From the NCBI RefSeq assembly GCF_014850955.1, contig NZ_JACXSS010000001.1, positions 3,162,001 through 3,226,000 on the forward strand: a stretch of DNA of 64,000 nucleotides, given 5' to 3'. Position numbers and translations under genes: made by a program. The first letter of the stretch is position 1. The number at the start of each line of letters is the position of its first letter. The notes beneath the pieces are model-generated. The model worked only from the letters and a program-made list of their open reading frames with translations, did no database searches and had not been told where the DNA came from. This document shows positions 35,739 to 44,620 of this stretch, in pieces. The stretch is from Methylomonas albis. GTDB taxonomy: Bacteria; Pseudomonadota; Gammaproteobacteria; Methylococcales; Methylomonadaceae.

Positions 35739-36029
35739 ATGAATCACGACGTAATTGCCGCTCGCGTAGAACATGTCGCAATGGCCACAGGTATTATCGC
35801 TGGCCTTTCCGCTGTCGCAGCTACCGTCGCCACGCCGACCGGACTGACGGCTTTTGGCGTCTGGTTGGGGCTGGTCGATGAACCTCTGATCGTAACGGTG
35901 GCGCCTATCCTGGATAAATTAGCCACCGTATGCGGCACCATTTCCGGTATGACCTATTTCTATGCCATCAGGAAAAAACGGCAAACTGTCAAACAGTCCG
36001 CGTCCGATAATTCCGCGCAATCGGATTGA
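35739..36029 (+). CDS. Small membrane protein, holin-like in layout
   Basis: A 96-residue protein with an N-terminal helix (VAMATGIIAGLSAVAATVAT), a loop, an amphipathic segment (VWLGLVDEPLIVTVAPILDKLAT), a short helix (VCGTISGMTYFYAI) and a basic tail (RKKRQ). The pattern recalls class II holins but no homology is claimed. There is no clear ribosome site and an opposite-strand frame overlaps its start, so the call is moderate. Confidence 0.5.
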   Translation: MNHDVIAARVEHVAMATGIIAGLSAVAATVATPTGLTAFGVWLGLVDEPLIVTVAPILDKLATVCGTISGMTYFYAIRKKRQTVKQSASDNSAQSD

Positions 36030-36045
36030 CCCGTCACTTAACGCG

Positions 36046-36225
36046 TCAAATTCGCGGGAATAACAAGCCCCCCATCAAACCGCTAACCAGGCTAAAGATC
36101 ACTGCCAGTATGATAATGGCGGGGATGGATGCCAACGCCCATTTCACCATCAACACCACGATGGAGAAAAACGGCATCTGCAAATCCACTACGATGACTT
36201 TTTTGGCTTCGTTTGAATCGTTCAT
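36046..36225 (-). CDS. 59-residue small membrane protein
   Basis: Reads from ATG 36225 to TGA 36046. A short polar N-terminus (MNDSNEAKKVIVVDLQMPF) leads into one long hydrophobic span (VKWALASIPAIIILAVIFSL) and a C-terminal GGLLFPRI. AGAAGGTAAACC precedes the ATG. It is the last of three tightly packed small genes on the minus strand. Family unknown. Confidence 0.65.
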   Translation of the reverse strand: MNDSNEAKKVIVVDLQMPFFSIVVLMVKWALASIPAIIILAVIFSLVSGLMGGLLFPRI

Positions 36226-36246
36226 GGTTTACCTTCTGTTAATGTG

Positions 36247-36327
36247 TCAGGAAGGGCGCAGAATATCAATAAACCGGTCAATGGTGATCATTAACGGCAA
36301 TTCGGCATTATCGTTCTCGATATCCAT
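36247..36327 (-). CDS. 26-residue peptide gene coupled to its upstream neighbour
   Basis: ATG at 36327 overlaps the stop of the 71-residue gene in a TAATG junction and runs to TGA at 36247. The peptide is acidic then basic (MDIENDNAELPL, then RFIDILRPS). The junction type and the packed spacing (21 bp to the next gene) argue for translation, but the gene is very short. Confidence 0.4.
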   Translation of the reverse strand: MDIENDNAELPLMITIDRFIDILRPS

Positions 36328-36542
36328 TATTCCGCCCAAGCGTGCTTATCCTTATTTGCAGACCTGATGGCGGAACCAGTTAAAATGCCAGCAAAGCCGG
36401 GTGGTTGCTCGGACACTTGGCTCAAATAGGCAACGCAAGCGATGGCCAAACTTGCGGCAAGCCAGGCGACTAAAATGACCGATATTGATGGCCGAATTGG
36501 CAGCGCTACGGCGCGGGTTCTACTTTTACTTTTTAACGACAT
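36327..36542 (-). CDS. 71-residue small membrane protein
   Basis: A basic N-terminus (MSLKSKSRTRAVALPIR) precedes a single membrane helix (ISVILVAWLAASLAIACVAYL), then a short polar tail with GFAGILTGSA. This is the head of the three-gene small-protein set, with the promoter presumably in 36543-36614. Not recognised. Confidence 0.6.
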   Translation of the reverse strand: MSLKSKSRTRAVALPIRPSISVILVAWLAASLAIACVAYLSQVSEQPPGFAGILTGSAIRSANKDKHAWAE

Positions 36543-36614
36543 GGCTTAAGCTCAAAAAGGAAAGGATGCGGGCAAGATGCCACGCATCCCTAGGGCTAGT
36601 TCAAGCGGTGTGCA

Positions 36615-37817
36615 TCAAGACTGCTTGAATTTAGCCGCCTCTTCCGAACCGCCGGTGGCATTGCCTTTACTATAGGAATGCGCGCCTACACCGGCCAACT
36701 GGCCGCCTTGCACGATCAAATATTCGTCGCGAATCGGCCGGCCTTCAAAGTAGCATTCCAGGATTTCACGGGTACCGGCGGCATAACGGGTTTGAGCAGA
36801 CAGGCTTGTTCCAGAGATGTGAGGGGTCATGCCGTGGTTCGGCATGCTGCGCCAAGGATGGTCTTGCGGCGCTGGTTGCGGGAACCAGACGTCGCCGGCA
36901 TAACCGGCCAGTTTACCGCTTTCCAATGCGGCAACCACCGCGTCACGATCAGCTAATTTGCCGCGAGCGGTGTTGACCAGATAGGCGCCGCGCTTGAACC
37001 ATTTCAACGATTGCTCGTTGATCATGTGCTCGGTTTCAGGATGCAGCGGGCAGTTCAAGGTCACGACATCGCAGACCTTGGCCAGGCTTTCCAGGCTGCT
37101 GTGATAGGTCAGATCCAATTCCTTTTCCACCTCTTCAGGCAAACGATGCCTATCCAGGTAGTGCAGTTTGACGCCGAAAGGTTTCAGCAAGCGCAGCACG
37201 CGCAAGCCGATACGGCCAGCCGCCACGGTGCCGACACTCATCGCTTCCAAGTCATAGGAGCGCGATACGCAATCGGCGATGTTCCAGCCGCCTTTCAACA
37301 CCCAGTTATGCGACGGGATGAAGTTGCGCACCAACGCCAGTATCGACATCAGCACGTGCTCGGCCACCGCGTTGCTGTTGCAGTAAGTGACTTCCGCCAC
37401 GGTAACATTGTGCTCCATCGCCGCTTGCAAGTCGGTATGGTCTGAACCGATACCGGCAGTGACGATCATTTTCAGTTTTTTGGCTTTGGCAATGCGTTCG
37501 GCAGTCATGTAAGCCGGCCAGAACGGTTGCGAGATGACGATTTCAGCATCATGTAGCTCGCGGTCCAACACGCTGTCTTCGCCGTCTTTGCTGGAAGTCA
37601 CGATCAATTCGTGACCGTTTGCTTCCAGATATTTGCGCAGACCCAATTCACCGGATACGCTTCCCAGCAACGCGCCGGGAACAAAATCAATGGCTTTAGG
37701 AGTCGGCAGGGTTTGACCGTCAGGATAGATTTCCGGCTGCGGGCAATCGTCACGCGCGTAAGAAGTGGGATAGCCGTCGACCGGATCATCGTAAAGAACT
37801 AAAACAATTTTTGCCAT
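36615..37817 (-). CDS. fdh: NAD-dependent formate dehydrogenase (metal-free, D-2-hydroxyacid dehydrogenase superfamily)
   Basis: A 400-residue enzyme that oxidises formate to CO2 with NAD+, the last step of C1 oxidation, in the cytoplasm. It resembles the well-known Pseudomonas enzyme along its length: NAD-binding SVGTVAAGRIGLRVLR, an Asp in YLDRHRLPEEVEKEL that gives NAD preference, catalytic Arg in VNTARGKL, Gln in WFPQPAP and His in PHISGTS, and the C-terminal GAHSYSKGNATGGSEEAAKF. The start is ATG 37817 (MAKIVLVLYDDP); the reading frame extends further upstream but without homology. It is monocistronic. Confidence 0.95.
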   Translation of the reverse strand: MAKIVLVLYDDPVDGYPTSYARDDCPQPEIYPDGQTLPTPKAIDFVPGALLGSVSGELGLRKYLEANGHELIVTSSKDGEDSVLDRELHDAEIVISQPFWPAYMTAERIAKAKKLKMIVTAGIGSDHTDLQAAMEHNVTVAEVTYCNSNAVAEHVLMSILALVRNFIPSHNWVLKGGWNIADCVSRSYDLEAMSVGTVAAGRIGLRVLRLLKPFGVKLHYLDRHRLPEEVEKELDLTYHSSLESLAKVCDVVTLNCPLHPETEHMINEQSLKWFKRGAYLVNTARGKLADRDAVVAALESGKLAGYAGDVWFPQPAPQDHPWRSMPNHGMTPHISGTSLSAQTRYAAGTREILECYFEGRPIRDEYLIVQGGQLAGVGAHSYSKGNATGGSEEAAKFKQS

Positions 37818-38343
37818 TTTCTTGTACCTTTGGTGTGGGTGAAAAACGGGATGCGCCGCGTATGGCTCATCAGATGTTCCCTGGCCAGGAAAAGGTATTG
37901 TTGGCTTAGCGTTGATTTGCGTCCAATCGTTTGCAAATATGATCCGATAGCTTGCAGCTATCAAAATGCAGTGGTTTGAGGTTTGTATAGCGAAATGCAT
38001 CGGTCGCGAACGATGCGCGGCTTTGCCTTGGCGCATCCTTGTATGATGAATTTTAACAATCGATAGCGTAGAAAAACTGGGGCTGGAAGGATTTTTTAAT
38101 CCGACCGTAACGTTTATCTTACCTTCAAGCTTGATTGAAACGTTTGCAACGGGGTTACAAACCCCTTTGCGCTCAAAAGGGCGAGCCAGTCGATATTCGG
38201 GTAAGAGATTGCTAGTGGACAGTAGTTTTTATTGGCTGACGGCTAAGTATCGGTTTTTTCAACTTTAGTCCTGAAAGAGCCTAATCGGCCATTCCGCGAC
38301 ATTCTAAGACTTTAGCGCATGGCAGTAGTAAAACGGAAACCAG
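37818..38343. other. 526-bp non-coding region upstream of fdh
   Basis: No gene is visible. The fdh promoter should lie here. A stable hairpin, GCAACGGGGTT-ACA-AACCCCTTTGC, occupies 38146-38170 and could be a terminator or protein-binding site. The segment from 38230 to 38340 looks like degraded repeat DNA. Confidence 0.5.
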
Positions 38344-39516
38344 TCATTTAGCGTAGAGTTCACCTGCAAACTCATGCTTGGCCTTTTCCACTGCTTTTAG
38401 GTGGGAGTGGATTTCTTTTGCAACACTAATGTGATATTGCAAAACTTTATGAATCCAAGATAGTGCTTTGACCTCAATATCCATCTTCCCCTCAACGAAG
38501 TAGTCTCTTCCCAAGAATCTCACTGGCTGTCCGGAGTCTAAACAATCTCGGGCATACTGTGCTGAATAATATAAAGGCATTTCATTTATTTCATTGGTCG
38601 CGATTCCAATGTAGATTTTTTCTAATTCAATCGCAGATGTTGAATGTATAAGATCATTTCGAAATTGAATTATTTCAGGTATGTCGGTATTTGAATCTTG
38701 GATACCAACAATGTTTTTTAGCACTTTGTCTGCAATAAATTTTGGTTGTATCTTCTTTACCTCATGATATTGTTTATCTCTAGCTGACTTAAAAGAAATA
38801 CTGGAAATATCTATAGAGTTTAAGTATTGAATTAACTTTGCTGATAAATCTAATGATGAACAAAGAGATATAACCAGGGATGTAACTGCAGATGCGGCTT
38901 GATATGAATCATTTCCACGATGAATAATTTCTTTGGATCCAAACTGCTCAATGGCCTTATAAGATTTAGCAATGCACTGTCTATGAGATCTCAACAGTTC
39001 TATATAAGCGGATATAGATCGACTGATCAGTGACATAATGTCGTTGCAGATTCGCTTAACCTGATTAGTTACCAGGAACAACTCTAAATCCCGTTCTTGA
39101 ATAGGAAAATGCCCATCATTGCAAAGTTTTTTAAAAGTTTCGTGAAGAAACTCTAATGCATATCTAGAGCCCTCTCCATAACCAAACTCAAGATAACCTA
39201 TTGGGAATAATCCGATAATGGAGTGATATCTCTCAATTTCTTCTCTATTAATCAGGCAGGCTAAAAAAGCGTAATCAATGTGCGCTATGTAATAGTGCTC
39301 TAGCTCGTTCCACCTAAAGTCGGAAAGATCAGGAAACTCTAAATCTATGCCTATAGTTACGAGCTTCTGTACTTTTGCAATCGTGTTTGTTTTCTCATTT
39401 AGCTCTTCTTCGCTAGACTGAAATGGCAATGAGCATGTACCAAAAATATCCTGAATCACATAAGAGCTATCACTAAGCTTTCTGATGAAAAGCCCTTTAT
39501 TTGCAAAGTACATCAT
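38344..39516 (-). CDS. AT-rich protein with a HEPN-type RxxxxH motif
   Basis: A 390-residue, largely helical protein not recognised at family level. Near the C-terminus, QFRNDLIHSTSAIELEKIY gives Arg286 and His291 with four residues between them, the R-N-xxx-H signature of HEPN domains, many of which are RNases or toxins in defence and TA systems. Composition is far more AT-rich than the neighbouring genes, indicating transfer. It sits between fdh and a 21-bp-period array, with about 350 bp of AT-rich DNA between its start and the array. HEPN assignment rests on one motif in a helical context, so a nuclease activity is only a possibility. Confidence 0.65.
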   Translation of the reverse strand: MMYFANKGLFIRKLSDSSYVIQDIFGTCSLPFQSSEEELNEKTNTIAKVQKLVTIGIDLEFPDLSDFRWNELEHYYIAHIDYAFLACLINREEIERYHSIIGLFPIGYLEFGYGEGSRYALEFLHETFKKLCNDGHFPIQERDLELFLVTNQVKRICNDIMSLISRSISAYIELLRSHRQCIAKSYKAIEQFGSKEIIHRGNDSYQAASAVTSLVISLCSSLDLSAKLIQYLNSIDISSISFKSARDKQYHEVKKIQPKFIADKVLKNIVGIQDSNTDIPEIIQFRNDLIHSTSAIELEKIYIGIATNEINEMPLYYSAQYARDCLDSGQPVRFLGRDYFVEGKMDIEVKALSWIHKVLQYHISVAKEIHSHLKAVEKAKHEFAGELYAK

Positions 39517-39888
39517 TATTTATTCGCCATCCATTGAGATTGCCCAGTATTCGCTTACGAACCTAACTAATGTGTTAAGACCATCCGTTGATGATTATAT
39601 GTATTTTGTCTAACAAGGAATTAAATTGTTAACTGCATATCTATATGAAAATGCTCTTTGACATGATAACTTTTTGATCTACATTTAATTTTCCTATCTG
39701 CATTTCATCGACGGTGACAGGCATCAATGACTGGTAACGATCAAATCGCTGCCATCGAATCAGACAAAGCGATAGTCCGCAAAGGGTCTATTTCGACAAT
39801 TCATCATTTCCAAAGTTTATCGAGCGTGGAATATGCCAATAAAGCATAGTCCTGCAATAACTTAGAAAAGTCATTATTCAAACCTGAG

Positions 39889-40245
39889 CATGGCAGTTCC
39901 GAGCTTGAGCGATGGAGAAGTTTTCTGCATCGCCCAGGCTTTTTTCCTGATCATTGGACAAATTTACTCCAACGTTCTCGTTCAGAACCAAAACGATGGC
40001 GTTCTTAGCCAAAACGTTCGAGAAAAAAGCTTGGCCATTTCAGTTAGGAACCCCAGCATTCGAGAAATTTTCTCGGTCGTTCCAGCTCAGAGCTTGGGCA
40101 TTGGACAAAATTACTCCAATGCTCTGGTTGAGAACTAAAGTGATGGACTTCTCAGCCAGAATGTTCGAGAAAATTTCTCGGTCATTCCCGCTCAGAACTT
40201 GGACGTTGGACAAAATTACGTCAATGTTCGAGTTTTAAGCCGGAA
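39889..40245. repeat. Tandem array with a strict 21-bp period (17 units), including regularly spaced palindromes
   Basis: Cut every 21 bp from 39889, the sequence gives 17 related units with no insertion or deletion; most start with CATT, CGTT, CGAT or TGTT. Three unit types carry dyads: TTGGACAAATTTACTCCAA, CGAGAAATTTTCTCG and a degenerate form. Dyad centres fall at about 39921, 39963, 40026, 40068, 40110, 40173 and 40215, so gaps are 42, 63, 42, 42, 63 and 42 bp. A higher-order repeat of 147 bp (7 units) is visible (39952-40056 against 40099-40203). Two plus frames are long and encode heptad-like text (for example FEKFSRSFQLRAW), but neither has a ribosome site. The rest of 39517-40334 holds no other gene. 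Confidence 0.85.
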
Positions 40246-40334
40246 TCTTGGGGTGATTTTGTAGCGTGATGGTGAAAAGAAATGAATCAAATGCACGTCA
40301 CGCCAGCTTACCGGCCCCTTCGATCCCGGCAAGT

Positions 40335-41264
40335 TCAACTCATGACATTGTCAATTTGCGCCGACATCAGCTTGTCGAAATGTTGTTGCAATTCCAGTGT
40401 CTGTGCAATTCGCCAAGCCACATCCTGAATCGGCGAGAGCATATCCTGGCGCCGAATGATCAAGCCGACCTCACGGGTCAACGCCGGGTAAAGCGGAATG
40501 GCCACAATATCCGGCTGGTACTGGGCCACGTTTAACATGCTATGGGGGACGACGCTGTATAGGCCGCTGCGAACATGCGAGTACAGTGCAAAAATCGAAT
40601 CGGTTTCCAACACGATATTGGGTTTGATACAGGCATCGCGGAATGCGCCGTCTATCAAACGGCGATTTTGCATGTTGGGTGTCAGCAAGCATAAGGGCAA
40701 TTCGGCGATTTCCAGCCAATTCAATTCGCGTTTGAGTAGTGAATGATCAGGGCGTAATGCCAATAAGACGTGACGTTCCCGATATAAGGGCTGTATGTTA
40801 AAGCCTTTCAAGCGGGGATCATCCAGATAGGTTAAACCCAAATCCAATTCGTATTGGTCTAGTTGTCGAATCAATTCTTCCGCGCAGAGTGATACCAAAT
40901 TGATCGAGATACCCGGACATTCAGCTTGAATCGGGCGTGTGATCGACGGCGTGACCGCGAGAGTGGTGGGTATCGCACCGAAGCGCAGGGTGCCGGTGAG
41001 TTGATGTTGAGCTTGTCGAGCCGTTTGCTTAAGGCTTTCCCAGTTGTTGGCTAAAACCTGGGCCCATTGCAAGATCCTTTCGCCTTCTTCGGTGAATCCC
41101 TGAAAGCGCTGTCCGCGTTTAATAATGGTAATGCCGAGTTCTTCTTCCAGATGCAGAATGGCAGTCGACAATGAAGGCTGCGAGACATGGCTGATTTCAG
41201 CTGCCCGCCCGAAGTGCTGAGTCTTTGCCAGGGCCAGAAGATAATGAATTTGGCGAATAAACAT
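40335..41264 (-). CDS. LysR-family transcriptional regulator
   Basis: A 309-residue LysR protein: N-terminal winged helix (IHYLLALAKTQHFGRAAEIS and HVSQPSLSTAILHLEEELG), then a type 2 periplasmic-binding-like effector domain starting at TGTLRFGAIPTTLAVTPSI. It lies 84 bp downstream of the formate dehydrogenase alpha gene on the same strand, so it may be co-transcribed with it and regulate it. LysR regulators beside fds genes are known in formate-oxidising bacteria. The effector is not known. The ribosome site is weak. Confidence 0.9.
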   Translation of the reverse strand: MFIRQIHYLLALAKTQHFGRAAEISHVSQPSLSTAILHLEEELGITIIKRGQRFQGFTEEGERILQWAQVLANNWESLKQTARQAQHQLTGTLRFGAIPTTLAVTPSITRPIQAECPGISINLVSLCAEELIRQLDQYELDLGLTYLDDPRLKGFNIQPLYRERHVLLALRPDHSLLKRELNWLEIAELPLCLLTPNMQNRRLIDGAFRDACIKPNIVLETDSIFALYSHVRSGLYSVVPHSMLNVAQYQPDIVAIPLYPALTREVGLIIRRQDMLSPIQDVAWRIAQTLELQQHFDKLMSAQIDNVMS

Positions 41265-41348
41265 GCAGAATAAGGAATTACCGTTAGCAATTTGCCATCC
41301 TTGGCAAAAATTTCAGGCAGTCAGGCGTTAGGGTTGCTCTGCATTCAA

Positions 41349-44219
41349 TTAACTATCGACTGTCGCTTTTTTAGGTTTCTTCAAGAAAGTTTCCTGATCG
41401 CCTCTAAATTGCTGAAAACGTTGCTGCCATTCCGAGGGTTGCGCGACTTTAACCACTTGTACCGCCGTGACTTTGTATTCAGGACAGTTGGTGGCCCAAT
41501 CGGAGTTGTCGGTGGTGATGACGTTGGCGCCGGAGAATGGATGATGAAACGTGGTGTAGACCACGCCGGGCTGCATCCTGGTCGATACTTTGGCATGTAG
41601 CACCGTTTCACCGGCCCGGCTCTGAATGCCGACCCAGTCGCCATCAACAATGCCGCGCTCTTCGGCATCGTGCGGATGGAGTTCCAAGATGTCTTCCGGA
41701 TGCCAGATGCTATTTTTGGTACGCCGGGTTTGCGCGCCGACGTTGTACTGCGACAGAATGCGACCGGTCGTCAAAATCAGCGGGAAGCGGCGCGTGACTT
41801 TTTCGTCGGTCGCCACATACTCGGTGTTCATGAAATGGCCTTTGCCGCGCACGAAGCCATCGATGTGCATGGTTGGCGTACCTTCTGGGGCGTCGTCATT
41901 ACAAGGCCATTGAATACTGCCCATCTCGTCTAATTTGGCGTAACTGACCCCTTTAAAAGTGGGCGTCAATTCGGCGATTTCGTCCATGATTTGCGAGGGA
42001 TGGTCGTAATGCATGGGGTAGCCCATGGCATTGGCCAGCATCATCGTCGCTTCCCAGTCGCCATAGCCACCTAATGGCGGAGCCACTTTACGCACACGAG
42101 AGATACGACGTTCGGCATTGGTAAAGGTGCCGTCTTTTTCCAAAAAGGAAGCGCCTGGCAACAGCACGTGTGCGAATTTGGCCGTCTCGTTCAAAAACAA
42201 GTCTTGCACTACGATGCACTCCACCTGGCGTAGTGCGGCTTCCACATGTTGGGTGTTGGGGTCGGATTGGGCGATGTCTTCGCCTTGGCAATACAATCCT
42301 TTAAAAGTGCCTTCGAAGGCCGCTTCGAACATGTTCGGTATCCGCAATCCCGGTTCGTTTTGCAGGGTCACGCCCCAAGCCGCGTCAAACACAGCGCGCG
42401 CGTCAGCGTTGGATACATGGCGATAACCGGGCAACTCATGCGGGAACGCACCCAAATCGCATGAGCCTTGCACATTGTTTTGACCGCGTAACGGATTAAC
42501 GCCGACGCCGGTGCGACCAATGTTGCCGGTGGCCATCGCCAGGTTGGCAATGGCGATCACCATCGTGGAACCCTGGCTGTGTTCAGTCACGCCCAAACCG
42601 TAATAAATCGTGCCATTCGGGGCGGCGGCAAATAGTCGCGCGGCGCCGCGCACTTGATCAGCCGGCACACCGGTAATTTCCTGCATCTCTTCCGGCGAAT
42701 TGCGCGGCTCGAGAATGAAGTTTTTCCAAGTTTGAAATTCTTTGGGGTCGCAACGCTCGTTGATAAAGTTTTCGTCGTACAAGCCTTCGCTGACGATGAC
42801 ATGCGCCAAAGCATTTGCCATGGCGACATTGGTGCCAGGGCGCAATTTCAGATGGTAATCGGCATGGATGTGCGCTGAATTGACCATATTGATTTCACGC
42901 GGATCGACCACAATCAGTCCGGCCCCTTCACGTAAACGGCGCTTTATTTGCGAGCCCACCACCGGATGACCGTCGGTTGGATTGACGCCAATCAGCATAA
43001 TCACATCGGCATCCTGCACCGAATCGAAGGTTTGCGTACCGGCCGAGGTACCAAATGTCGCGCTCAATCCGTAACCCGTCGGCGAATGGCAAACCCGCGC
43101 ACAGGTATCGACGTTGTTATTGCCAAATGCGGCGCGCACCAGTTTTTGTACCAAGTAGTCTTCTTCATTGGTACAACGCGAAGACACCAGTCCACCAATT
43201 GAGTTTTGGCCGTATTTGGCTTGAATAGCTTTGAATTTAGTGGCGGCAAACTCGATAGCTTGCTCCCAAGTCGCTTCCTGCCAGGGATCGGTGATTTTTT
43301 CGCGGATCATCGGTTTGGTCAGGCGATCGGGATGTGTCGCATAGCCCCAGGCAAATCGGCCTTTAACACAGGCATGGCCGTGGTTAGCGTCGCCGTTCTT
43401 ATTCGGAAACATGTTGACCACTTGCGTGCCTTTGACTTCGGCCACCAGTGAACAGCCAACCCCGCAATAGGCGCAAGTCGTCACGATGTGATCGTCAGAC
43501 TGGCCGCGCTCGATTAAGGTTTTTTCCATCAGAGTGGCGGTTGGGCAAGACAGCACGCAGGCGCCGCAAGACACGCAATCGGAATCAAGGAACGCTTCAT
43601 TTTGGCCTGCGGAAACCCTCGACTCAAAGCCGCGACCGTCGATGGTTAGCGCGAACGTGCCCTGAACTTGTTCGCAGGCACGCACGCAGCGGTTGCAAAC
43701 AATACATTTGGAAGGGTCGTAGGTGAAATACGGATTGGACTCGTCCTTTTGTAACGATAGATGGTTATGACCTTCGTAGCCGTAACGCACTTCGCGCAGC
43801 CCCACCCGACCCGCCATGGTTTGCAGTTCACAATTGCCATTGGCTGGACAAATCAGGCAGTCGAGCGGGTGATCGGAAATATACAGTTCCATTACACCCC
43901 GGCGAATTTTGGCGAGTTGCGACGTTTCAGTGTGAACTTTCATACCGGCTTCGGCGGGTGTGGTACAAGAGGCCGGATGACCGCGCCGACCATCTATTTC
44001 TACCAGACAAAGACGGCAGGAGCCGAATGGTTCCAAGCTTTCCATCGCACACAATTTGGGTATTTCAATCCCCGCCATGGCGGCGGCACGCATCACGGAT
44101 GTCCCTTGAGGCACGGTGACCTTGATCCGGTCGATTTCCAGTTCGATCAAGGTGTCCGAGAATTTTTCGGGTGTTCCAAAATCTTTGTCACAGCCACAAT
44201 TTCCGCATTGATGCGCCAT
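41349..44219 (-). CDS. fdsA: Formate dehydrogenase alpha subunit, bis-MGD molybdo- or tungsto-enzyme
   Basis: A 956-residue catalytic subunit. Order: an N-terminal CGNCGC motif (residues 5-10), a 2Fe-2S domain (PFGSCRLCLVEIDG, near 60), a HxxxC-type cluster (DHPLDCLICPANGNC, near 123), two 4Fe-4S sites (CIVCNRCVRAC near 173, CVSCGACVLSC near 218), then the molybdopterin domain (CAYCGVGC near 250; metal-ligand Cys in RVCHSPTGYG near 378). Cysteine rather than selenocysteine is used. The start is ATG 44219 with AGGAG upstream. The NADH-dehydrogenase-like partners (fdsB, fdsG) and fdsD are not adjacent, so they must be elsewhere or the subunit has another partner. Confidence 0.92.
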   Translation of the reverse strand: MAHQCGNCGCDKDFGTPEKFSDTLIELEIDRIKVTVPQGTSVMRAAAMAGIEIPKLCAMESLEPFGSCRLCLVEIDGRRGHPASCTTPAEAGMKVHTETSQLAKIRRGVMELYISDHPLDCLICPANGNCELQTMAGRVGLREVRYGYEGHNHLSLQKDESNPYFTYDPSKCIVCNRCVRACEQVQGTFALTIDGRGFESRVSAGQNEAFLDSDCVSCGACVLSCPTATLMEKTLIERGQSDDHIVTTCAYCGVGCSLVAEVKGTQVVNMFPNKNGDANHGHACVKGRFAWGYATHPDRLTKPMIREKITDPWQEATWEQAIEFAATKFKAIQAKYGQNSIGGLVSSRCTNEEDYLVQKLVRAAFGNNNVDTCARVCHSPTGYGLSATFGTSAGTQTFDSVQDADVIMLIGVNPTDGHPVVGSQIKRRLREGAGLIVVDPREINMVNSAHIHADYHLKLRPGTNVAMANALAHVIVSEGLYDENFINERCDPKEFQTWKNFILEPRNSPEEMQEITGVPADQVRGAARLFAAAPNGTIYYGLGVTEHSQGSTMVIAIANLAMATGNIGRTGVGVNPLRGQNNVQGSCDLGAFPHELPGYRHVSNADARAVFDAAWGVTLQNEPGLRIPNMFEAAFEGTFKGLYCQGEDIAQSDPNTQHVEAALRQVECIVVQDLFLNETAKFAHVLLPGASFLEKDGTFTNAERRISRVRKVAPPLGGYGDWEATMMLANAMGYPMHYDHPSQIMDEIAELTPTFKGVSYAKLDEMGSIQWPCNDDAPEGTPTMHIDGFVRGKGHFMNTEYVATDEKVTRRFPLILTTGRILSQYNVGAQTRRTKNSIWHPEDILELHPHDAEERGIVDGDWVGIQSRAGETVLHAKVSTRMQPGVVYTTFHHPFSGANVITTDNSDWATNCPEYKVTAVQVVKVAQPSEWQQRFQQFRGDQETFLKKPKKATVDS

Positions 44220-44620
44220 CGATTTATCTCCTAACGGTTGTCCGGATGTGAGCATACGGGATGCAATATTTTGAAAACGCGCATCCGGGTTTCCAACACA
44301 AAAGACGTTGTTGGGATTGGCTTGCTCTGAACCGATCTGAATCACGACTAAGTGGAATTTTAGATACTGTTATATTTGTTAGTATATATCGAAAAATAGT
44401 GTCGAGCTAACGCTTGATCGCCGTACATTAAGCTTTAATGTGTATAAAATGCCGTGTGGCCCCAATTGGCTCGGCTTAGCGAACAGTCTGTCAATGAAAT
44501 TCGGTAGTAATTTTGGGACTTTTAACTGGTATGGCTATGTTGATCCTGCGTATAATTCAAACTTCGATATATTTTTTGAAATATATTGATTTGCGCATTT
44601 TTTTGGCAGGGGCGACGCTT

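Follow-up and report, generated by a model that had tools for sequence, protein, structure and literature searches.

The locus analyzed here raises a question that concerns length rather than sequence: why should a row of short DNA units keep an exact spacing when the units themselves have diverged a great deal? The units in question lie in a window of 64,000 nucleotides from Methylomonas albis (assembly GCF_014850955.1, contig NZ_JACXSS010000001.1, positions 3,162,001 to 3,226,000), by which we mean the whole stretch of DNA under analysis. A first-pass annotation of its letters had described seventeen units in an exact 21-bp register at 39889..40245, and had offered three explanations: a scaffold for protein binding, a structured RNA, or a decayed heptad-repeat coding sequence. 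The array, which is assigned to neither strand, has genes on the minus strand to both sides, as identified from open reading frames and Pfam. To the left is a 390-aa open reading frame (38344..39516) whose start codon is towards the array, and which has no match of any kind in Pfam. To the right, with its stop codon 89 bp past the array, is a gene for a LysR-type regulator (40335..41264), followed on the same strand by a gene for a molybdopterin oxidoreductase with ferredoxin domains, similar to the alpha subunit of formate dehydrogenase (41349..44345). A scan of positions 36000-44500 against Rfam gave no match within the array and one sub-threshold match outside it: ar45, at 42030-42182 (E 0.021; 25.9 bits against a cut-off of 40), which lies inside the formate-dehydrogenase-like gene and is probably due to chance.

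The units of the window array were scored with a profile built from 26 arrays, the window array not among them. The 17 units receive scores of +5.8 to +19.1, compared with a window background of -20.5 (sd 9.0; 99.9th percentile 5.9). That is, 16 of the 17 units exceed the 99.9th percentile of the background, one falls 0.1 below it, and all steps between units are 21 bp, which bears out the annotated register. Taking the commonest base at each position across the array family, the unit consensus is CGTTCGAGATATTATCTCGAA. Outside the array the register is lost: the four 21-mers upstream of 39889 all score below zero, and the scores of the two that follow 40245 are -1.5 and +3.0. These last two (40246..40287) are weak units in register, included when units are chained, and they possibly represent a decayed end of the array.

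The first-pass annotation had proposed two checks of periodicity, both of which were run. Autocorrelation peaks at lag 21 and at every other multiple of 21 tested, eight in all, up to 168. Relative to 500 dinucleotide shuffles, the z-scores at lags 21, 42, 63 and 84 are 6.0, 9.0, 7.7 and 7.4, and those at lags 105, 126, 147 and 168 are 11.3, 4.9, 12.8 and 4.0. The highest autocorrelation, 0.643, is found at lag 147, and the annotated 147-bp higher-order repeat is indeed real: two copies of seven units each, 39880-40026 and 40027-40173, are 70% identical (39880..40173). The best-preserved internal duplicate (40059..40234) is a 71-bp block, present at 40059-40129 and again at 40164-40234, 105 bp or five units apart, with 85% identity. 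Because the units are too diverged, the standard finder misses most of the array; Tandem Repeats Finder, even with its threshold lowered to 40, calls merely 2.4 copies, at 39971-40020.

The same annotation had listed seven dyad centres, spaced 42-63-42-42-63-42, which would place them on one face of the helix. Since it gave the spacings without positions, we placed the centres by fit, at 39921, 39963, 40026, 40068, 40110, 40173 and 40215, where 8, 7, 4, 7, 8, 8 and 5 of 10 mirrored pairs match, respectively. The spacing is not independent evidence: all of the dyads are centres of 21-bp units, and distances of 42 and 63 bp follow from that alone. The unit centres at 39984 (8 of 10 pairs) and 40089 (7 of 10) are as symmetric but are not among these seven. 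Palindrome strength differs between units of the window array; taken together, the 17 units have 98 matching pairs of mirrored bases out of 170, compared with 30 of 90 across nine flanking 21-mers.

The window array belongs to a family. Searching its own genome with the window array yields 13 matches, the window array included, and the stretches fetched around these matches, once scanned, contain at least nine arrays, each with between 7 and 19 units. By eye, the neighbouring genes and their orientations differ among the nine arrays, and none is common to them. A sequence-only model of 105 positions finds matches in 11 of the 37 Methylomonas genomes, and similar arrays were chained in all 11. 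Since, at the sensitivity used, arrays are seen in no more than these 11 genomes, their function is dispensable within the genus. In scans at the levels of class and phylum, matches occur in 2 of 274 and 2 of 398 genomes, in both cases the genome of the window and one other (G064). Within the family to which that other genome belongs, a different family of the same class, the model matches 11 of 119 genomes and 8 of 54 genera. The scans of class, phylum and family used stricter filters and sampled genomes, and their counts are lower bounds. Arrays were chained in nine of the 11 matching genomes of this other family, and at the G383 and G384 loci no array rose above threshold despite the model matches. 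The 20 loci examined there reduce to 13 non-redundant arrays, which are biased to similar units, having been found with a model built on Methylomonas. Their sequences are different, and in several of them two or three units together form a clear higher-order repeat.

A search of public species genomes with a 19-base pattern returned 18 stretches: 12 in Methylomonas, all within arrays and with no off-register step, and four in Nitrosomonas and two in Bacteroidota, which are single matches without arrays. We also considered, and rejected, an origin from plasmids or phages. Two arrays queried against plasmid records found no match, nor did the window array against phage records, and an exact-pattern scan of a viral collection found none.

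How strictly is the register kept? Unit chaining permitted steps of 18 to 24 bp but penalized all those other than 21; under this procedure, 381 of 382 steps are 21 bp and the remaining one is 22 across 27 non-redundant Methylomonas arrays (409 units), six additional arrays (L107, L122-L126) have 75 steps of 21 bp out of 76 and a single step of 22, and in the 13 arrays of the other family 156 of 163 steps are 21. Because chaining penalizes other steps, the independent test of the register is the gapped alignment of arrays matched by locus. We compared 16 such pairs, which share lineages and hence are not independent, with their flanks, of which 22 of 32 pieces were kept (10 were dropped for having fewer than 80 aligned bases or less than 70% identity). 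Of 4448 aligned array bases 552 are substituted, and of 8621 aligned flank bases 998, so that the substitution rate of the arrays is close to that of the flanks. The gaps are another matter. The flanks contain 56, none of them divisible by 21, whereas the arrays contain five in total, of sizes 1, 1, 21, 21 and 42. Given the number of flank gaps per substitution, about 31 off-register gaps are expected in the arrays and 2 are seen, roughly 15 times fewer, and this comparison is conservative, since the flanks contain coding sequence. Both single-base gaps, moreover, occur in one pair (L032/L038), and since each of its arrays keeps 13 exact units, the two gaps compensate each other.

Thus, array length is much more strongly conserved than array sequence, as had been claimed for the window array. 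The first-pass annotation had named free indels in related strains as the finding that would overturn it; checked on related species rather than strains, free indels did not appear. Its suggestion that the array grew by segmental duplication gains support from the whole-unit gaps of 21, 21 and 42 bp together with the 147-bp repeat.

We next ask about the age of this spacing, for which 21 of the 27 arrays could be assigned to loci by hand from their flanks; the six unassigned arrays were dropped, as were pairs with fewer than five matched units. Arrays at the same locus in different genomes have a mean likeness of 0.823 (44 pairs). The corresponding mean is 0.684 for arrays at different loci of the same genome (19 pairs), and 0.687 for arrays that differ in both locus and genome (113 pairs, one of which reaches 0.905). 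Likeness therefore follows the locus and not the genome, which indicates that the array loci predate the split of the species. Since arrays group by locus, recent amplification or homogenization does not account for the regular spacing. For example, six genomes (L145, L147, L148, L149, L150 and L152) show an array upstream of leuB. No clean empty counterpart of this leuB site was recovered, as the array-less genomes have different flanks.

Some of the loci have distinctive surroundings. At three of the nine array loci in the window's own genome there is an open reading frame for a Mutator-family (IS256-like) transposase (L111:5182-6411, L115:4666-5895 and L113:4288-5517), assigned by Pfam on the L111 copy and by the first 50 residues, which agree in all three. 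Its distance to the array is 38 and 48 bp at two of these loci and 689 bp at the third; arrays may be landing places. An open reading frame 1.4 kb from a leuB array (L110:4142-4672) has a weak, below-cut-off match to Y1 (IS200-like) transposases, and a near-identical relative (L125:3713-4243) lies 1.9 kb from the leuB array of a second genome, the match having been tested with the L110 frame. Five loci (L005, L007, L029, L030 and L037) have the same short palindromic sequence in their left flanks, close to the array, with one base off in L029, as if array and left flank had moved or arisen jointly. The two arrays of G064 (flanks L116:8247-8310 and L117:7960-8022) also have a common flanking stretch, in opposite orientations, which we take to contain a sequence resembling a DnaA box.

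Having established what is constant about the length of the unit, we now turn to what is constant about its letters. When the Methylomonas unit profile is compared with its own reverse complement, the correlation is 0.918 at one centre and 0.187 at the next best. The pooled profile of the other family gives 0.92, and the same dyad centre is ranked first in 13 of its 13 arrays (r from 0.31 to 0.88 in single arrays), subject to the bias of a related model. The letters that vary least are C-G at the start of the unit (positions 0-1), A-G and C-T nine bases apart (positions 6-7 and 15-16), and a T and an A outside those. The centres of the units are A/T-rich in alternation with G/C-rich.

Such symmetry could reflect either a stem or a pair of half-sites. 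If the units were transcribed and folded into hairpins, as the structured-RNA option would have it, one would look for a stable fold and for mirrored bases that go together. The predicted fold of 39880-40260 is far more stable than its shuffles (z -8.9), although any repeated palindrome gives such a value, and an association across units does exist for the mirrored positions 4-18, 9-13 and 10-12 (z 7.0, 5.4 and 14.6). However, the freest mirrored positions, 2-20 and 5-17, show no association across units, and we therefore read the association at the other three as a sign of unit types. What decides between stem and half-sites is the comparison of matched units (10 array pairs, 133 units). Mirrored pairs that have changed are still paired in just 5 of 112 cases, and double changes at mirrored positions are in slight excess, 30 against 22 expected; the substitution rates of mirrored positions correlate moderately (Spearman 0.58, p 0.08). 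Bases that mirror each other do not change in concert, and hence the unit is not a hairpin: their near-independent change is the pattern expected of two half-sites, not of a stem. On this pair test we rejected a hairpin RNA or a cruciform, and, the array being also without a match in Rfam, we regard a structured RNA as very unlikely. The possibility that the array encodes, or once encoded, a heptad-repeat protein (21 bp being seven codons) calls for similar care, because the position-class rates looked coding-like at first. The low-information positions of the Methylomonas units recur every third base; the three position classes change at 0.158, 0.114 and 0.247, as measured between arrays with 75% identity or more (50 pairs, which overlap and do not all come from a single locus); and all six frames have fewer stops than independent columns predict, 86 against 159 for example. 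Nonetheless, every one of the six frames has stops, between 47 and 158 of them, over the 27 arrays. The fastest class is not the third codon position but the second in the 82-aa plus frame and the first in the 94-aa frame, and the three-base pattern is absent from the other family. Within Methylomonas, the palindrome leaves about 11 independent positions, so that we estimate the chance of the pattern to be of the order of 1 in 100. In the window array itself, neither of the two open frames matches Pfam. On stops, codon phase and Pfam together we rejected coding, and even a decayed coding sequence seems extremely improbable to us.

It is important, furthermore, to separate the proposal of a dedicated binding protein from two explanations that were not on the original list. 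The helix-phased A/T-rich centres might bend the DNA by themselves, the bend being used by a general nucleoid protein or by RNA polymerase. Curvature of this kind would keep length over sequence, as observed, and the 10.5-bp power of A/T segments is greater than the shuffle mean in 27 of 27 arrays, with a mean of 15.7 versus 1.6 in shuffles and 5.1 under jitter of unit length. But the power at 10.5 bp is in part a harmonic of the 21-bp repeat (19.4 at 21.0 bp, 11.6 at 7.0 bp) and is not independent proof, and bending requires neither the dyad-symmetric, base-specific conservation outside the centres nor G/C-rich alternate centres; we consider intrinsic curvature unlikely to be the explanation. 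Alternatively, the array could be a functionless satellite, whose units are made by slippage or recombination and whose off-register variants are purged by in-register recombination. Whole-unit gaps, higher-order repeats and the patchy presence of arrays in the genus are all in keeping with such a neutral history. Yet there is strong divergence among the units of a single array, and arrays cluster according to locus and not to genome, which implies that homogenizing recombination is rare, and the palindromic profile is left unexplained. A neutral satellite is, in our judgment, unlikely as well.

We conclude, with a probability of roughly 0.6, that the array serves as a scaffold of non-coding DNA, with a repeat of two helical turns, for a putative dimeric protein. 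This reading follows from several features together: spacing letters are free, contact letters are symmetric, the spacing is exactly two turns, and stem covariation is lacking; of the three explanations offered at first pass, protein binding fits best, given the strict spacing across species and the dyad-symmetric profile. Counting against it are the moderate correlation of rates at mirrored positions, the slight excess of double changes there, the association of some mirrored positions across units, the lack of a shared neighbouring gene or orientation at the nine loci, and the dispensability of the arrays within the genus. The array would present a row of mirror-symmetric sites, one per 21 bp, i.e. 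two helical turns. A symmetric (dimeric) DNA-binding protein would sit on each unit, all along one face of the helix, and neighbouring dimers would touch side by side to form a cooperative or filament-like complex. We infer here all three of protein binding, the dimer state and the interaction of neighbours. As for the consequence, we can only guess at an effect on nucleoid folding, local silencing or local expression.

The motif was also followed outside the arrays, for two unit types. The first type occurs at eight places, six of them inside arrays, and the other two compare with two in a reversed-pattern control; the second occurs at 20 places, 16 of them inside arrays, and the other four compare with two in the control. 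For the most part, then, the motif keeps to arrays. On these counts (2 of 8 and 4 of 20 places outside arrays, against two in each control) we rejected the idea of isolated operator sites.

The sole candidate family of binders that we tested consists of proteins with Lrp/AsnC-type domains, whose E. coli consensus likewise has A-G and C-T half-sites. Such domains are found in 35 of the 37 Methylomonas genomes. A strong hit (E < 1e-16) is present in 10 of 11 array-bearing genomes versus 12 of 26 array-less ones, for which a one-sided hypergeometric calculation by hand, ignoring kinship and genome size, gives about 0.012; the mean number of matches is 5.1 in the former and 3.9 in the latter. One array-bearing genome (G017) is nonetheless without a strong hit. 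The presence of Lrp/AsnC proteins thus stands in a loose association with the presence of arrays, and is not a clean match to it. More broadly, length-constant satellites in unrelated families might share a dyad-symmetric 21-bp code, read by a filament-forming nucleoid protein, a generalization that we advance tentatively and rather doubt. If it were true, the half-site letters would be fixed and the spacer letters free, and such arrays would amount to a bacterial equivalent of positioned chromatin.

It remains to place the array among known repeat systems. A search of one literature library on Methylomonas repeats and on phased palindromic arrays, at the level of titles and the openings of abstracts, found no description of this array family. 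REP repeats form stem-loops. Like REP, BIME and REPIN sequences, the arrays are clusters of short, palindromic, intergenic repeats, and the weak Y1 match noted above lies near one leuB array; unlike REP and BIME, their units run head to tail, with no spacers and without stem covariation. In plasmid centromeres and phased operator arrays, such as ParR/parC, SopB/sopC and KorB, protein dimers assemble on tandem phased sites. The array can be likened to these systems in having phased tandem sites for the proposed dimers, but it differs from them in being chromosomal and in having at least nine copies per genome; neither the two arrays queried against plasmid records nor the window array against phage records gave a match.

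The closest relatives are found in the work of Subirana and Messeguer, who describe bacterial tandem repeats of constant length, 20-21 or 52 nt, and variable sequence, point out that a 21-nt repeat spans two turns of the helix, and suggest either a polymerizing protein that needs a constant repeat size or small RNAs, in the parts of their paper used here (PMC8161180); a 2019 survey (PMC6749651) and a 2021 paper on transcription (PMC8625621) are by the same authors. As far as those parts go, the arrays resemble the 20-21-nt satellites in being non-coding, with a two-turn unit of constant length, a variable sequence, several arrays per genome and short conserved motifs (PMC8161180). In the present family, the constant length is seen in 381 of 382 steps over 27 arrays, and the non-coding character in the stops of all six frames and in window frames without Pfam matches. 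There are at least nine arrays in the genome of the window, the sequences of the other family differ, and A-G and C-T, at fixed places, supply the characteristic short sequences. One respect in which the family departs from that description is the restriction of a satellite to one species, since matching arrays occur in several Methylomonas genomes. The source paper itself, in the portion considered, contains an exception to species specificity (PMC8161180), and we therefore treat such specificity as a usual and not a strict feature.

There are two further differences from the satellites as presented in those parts of PMC8161180: the Methylomonas units are too diverged for a standard finder (2.4 copies), and their arrays stand at matching loci across species. 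In addition, dyad symmetry has been demonstrated here and the constraint on length measured against flanks, tests that do not feature in the same parts of that paper (PMC8161180). We thus file the window array as a diverged member of a known but unexplained kind of constant-length satellite. Satellites of constant length have been reported in bacteria before, without explanation; what the Methylomonas family offers is a constraint on length measured between species, a symmetric profile to serve as bait, and array-bearing and array-less loci within one genus, which together make the proposed array-binding protein directly testable.
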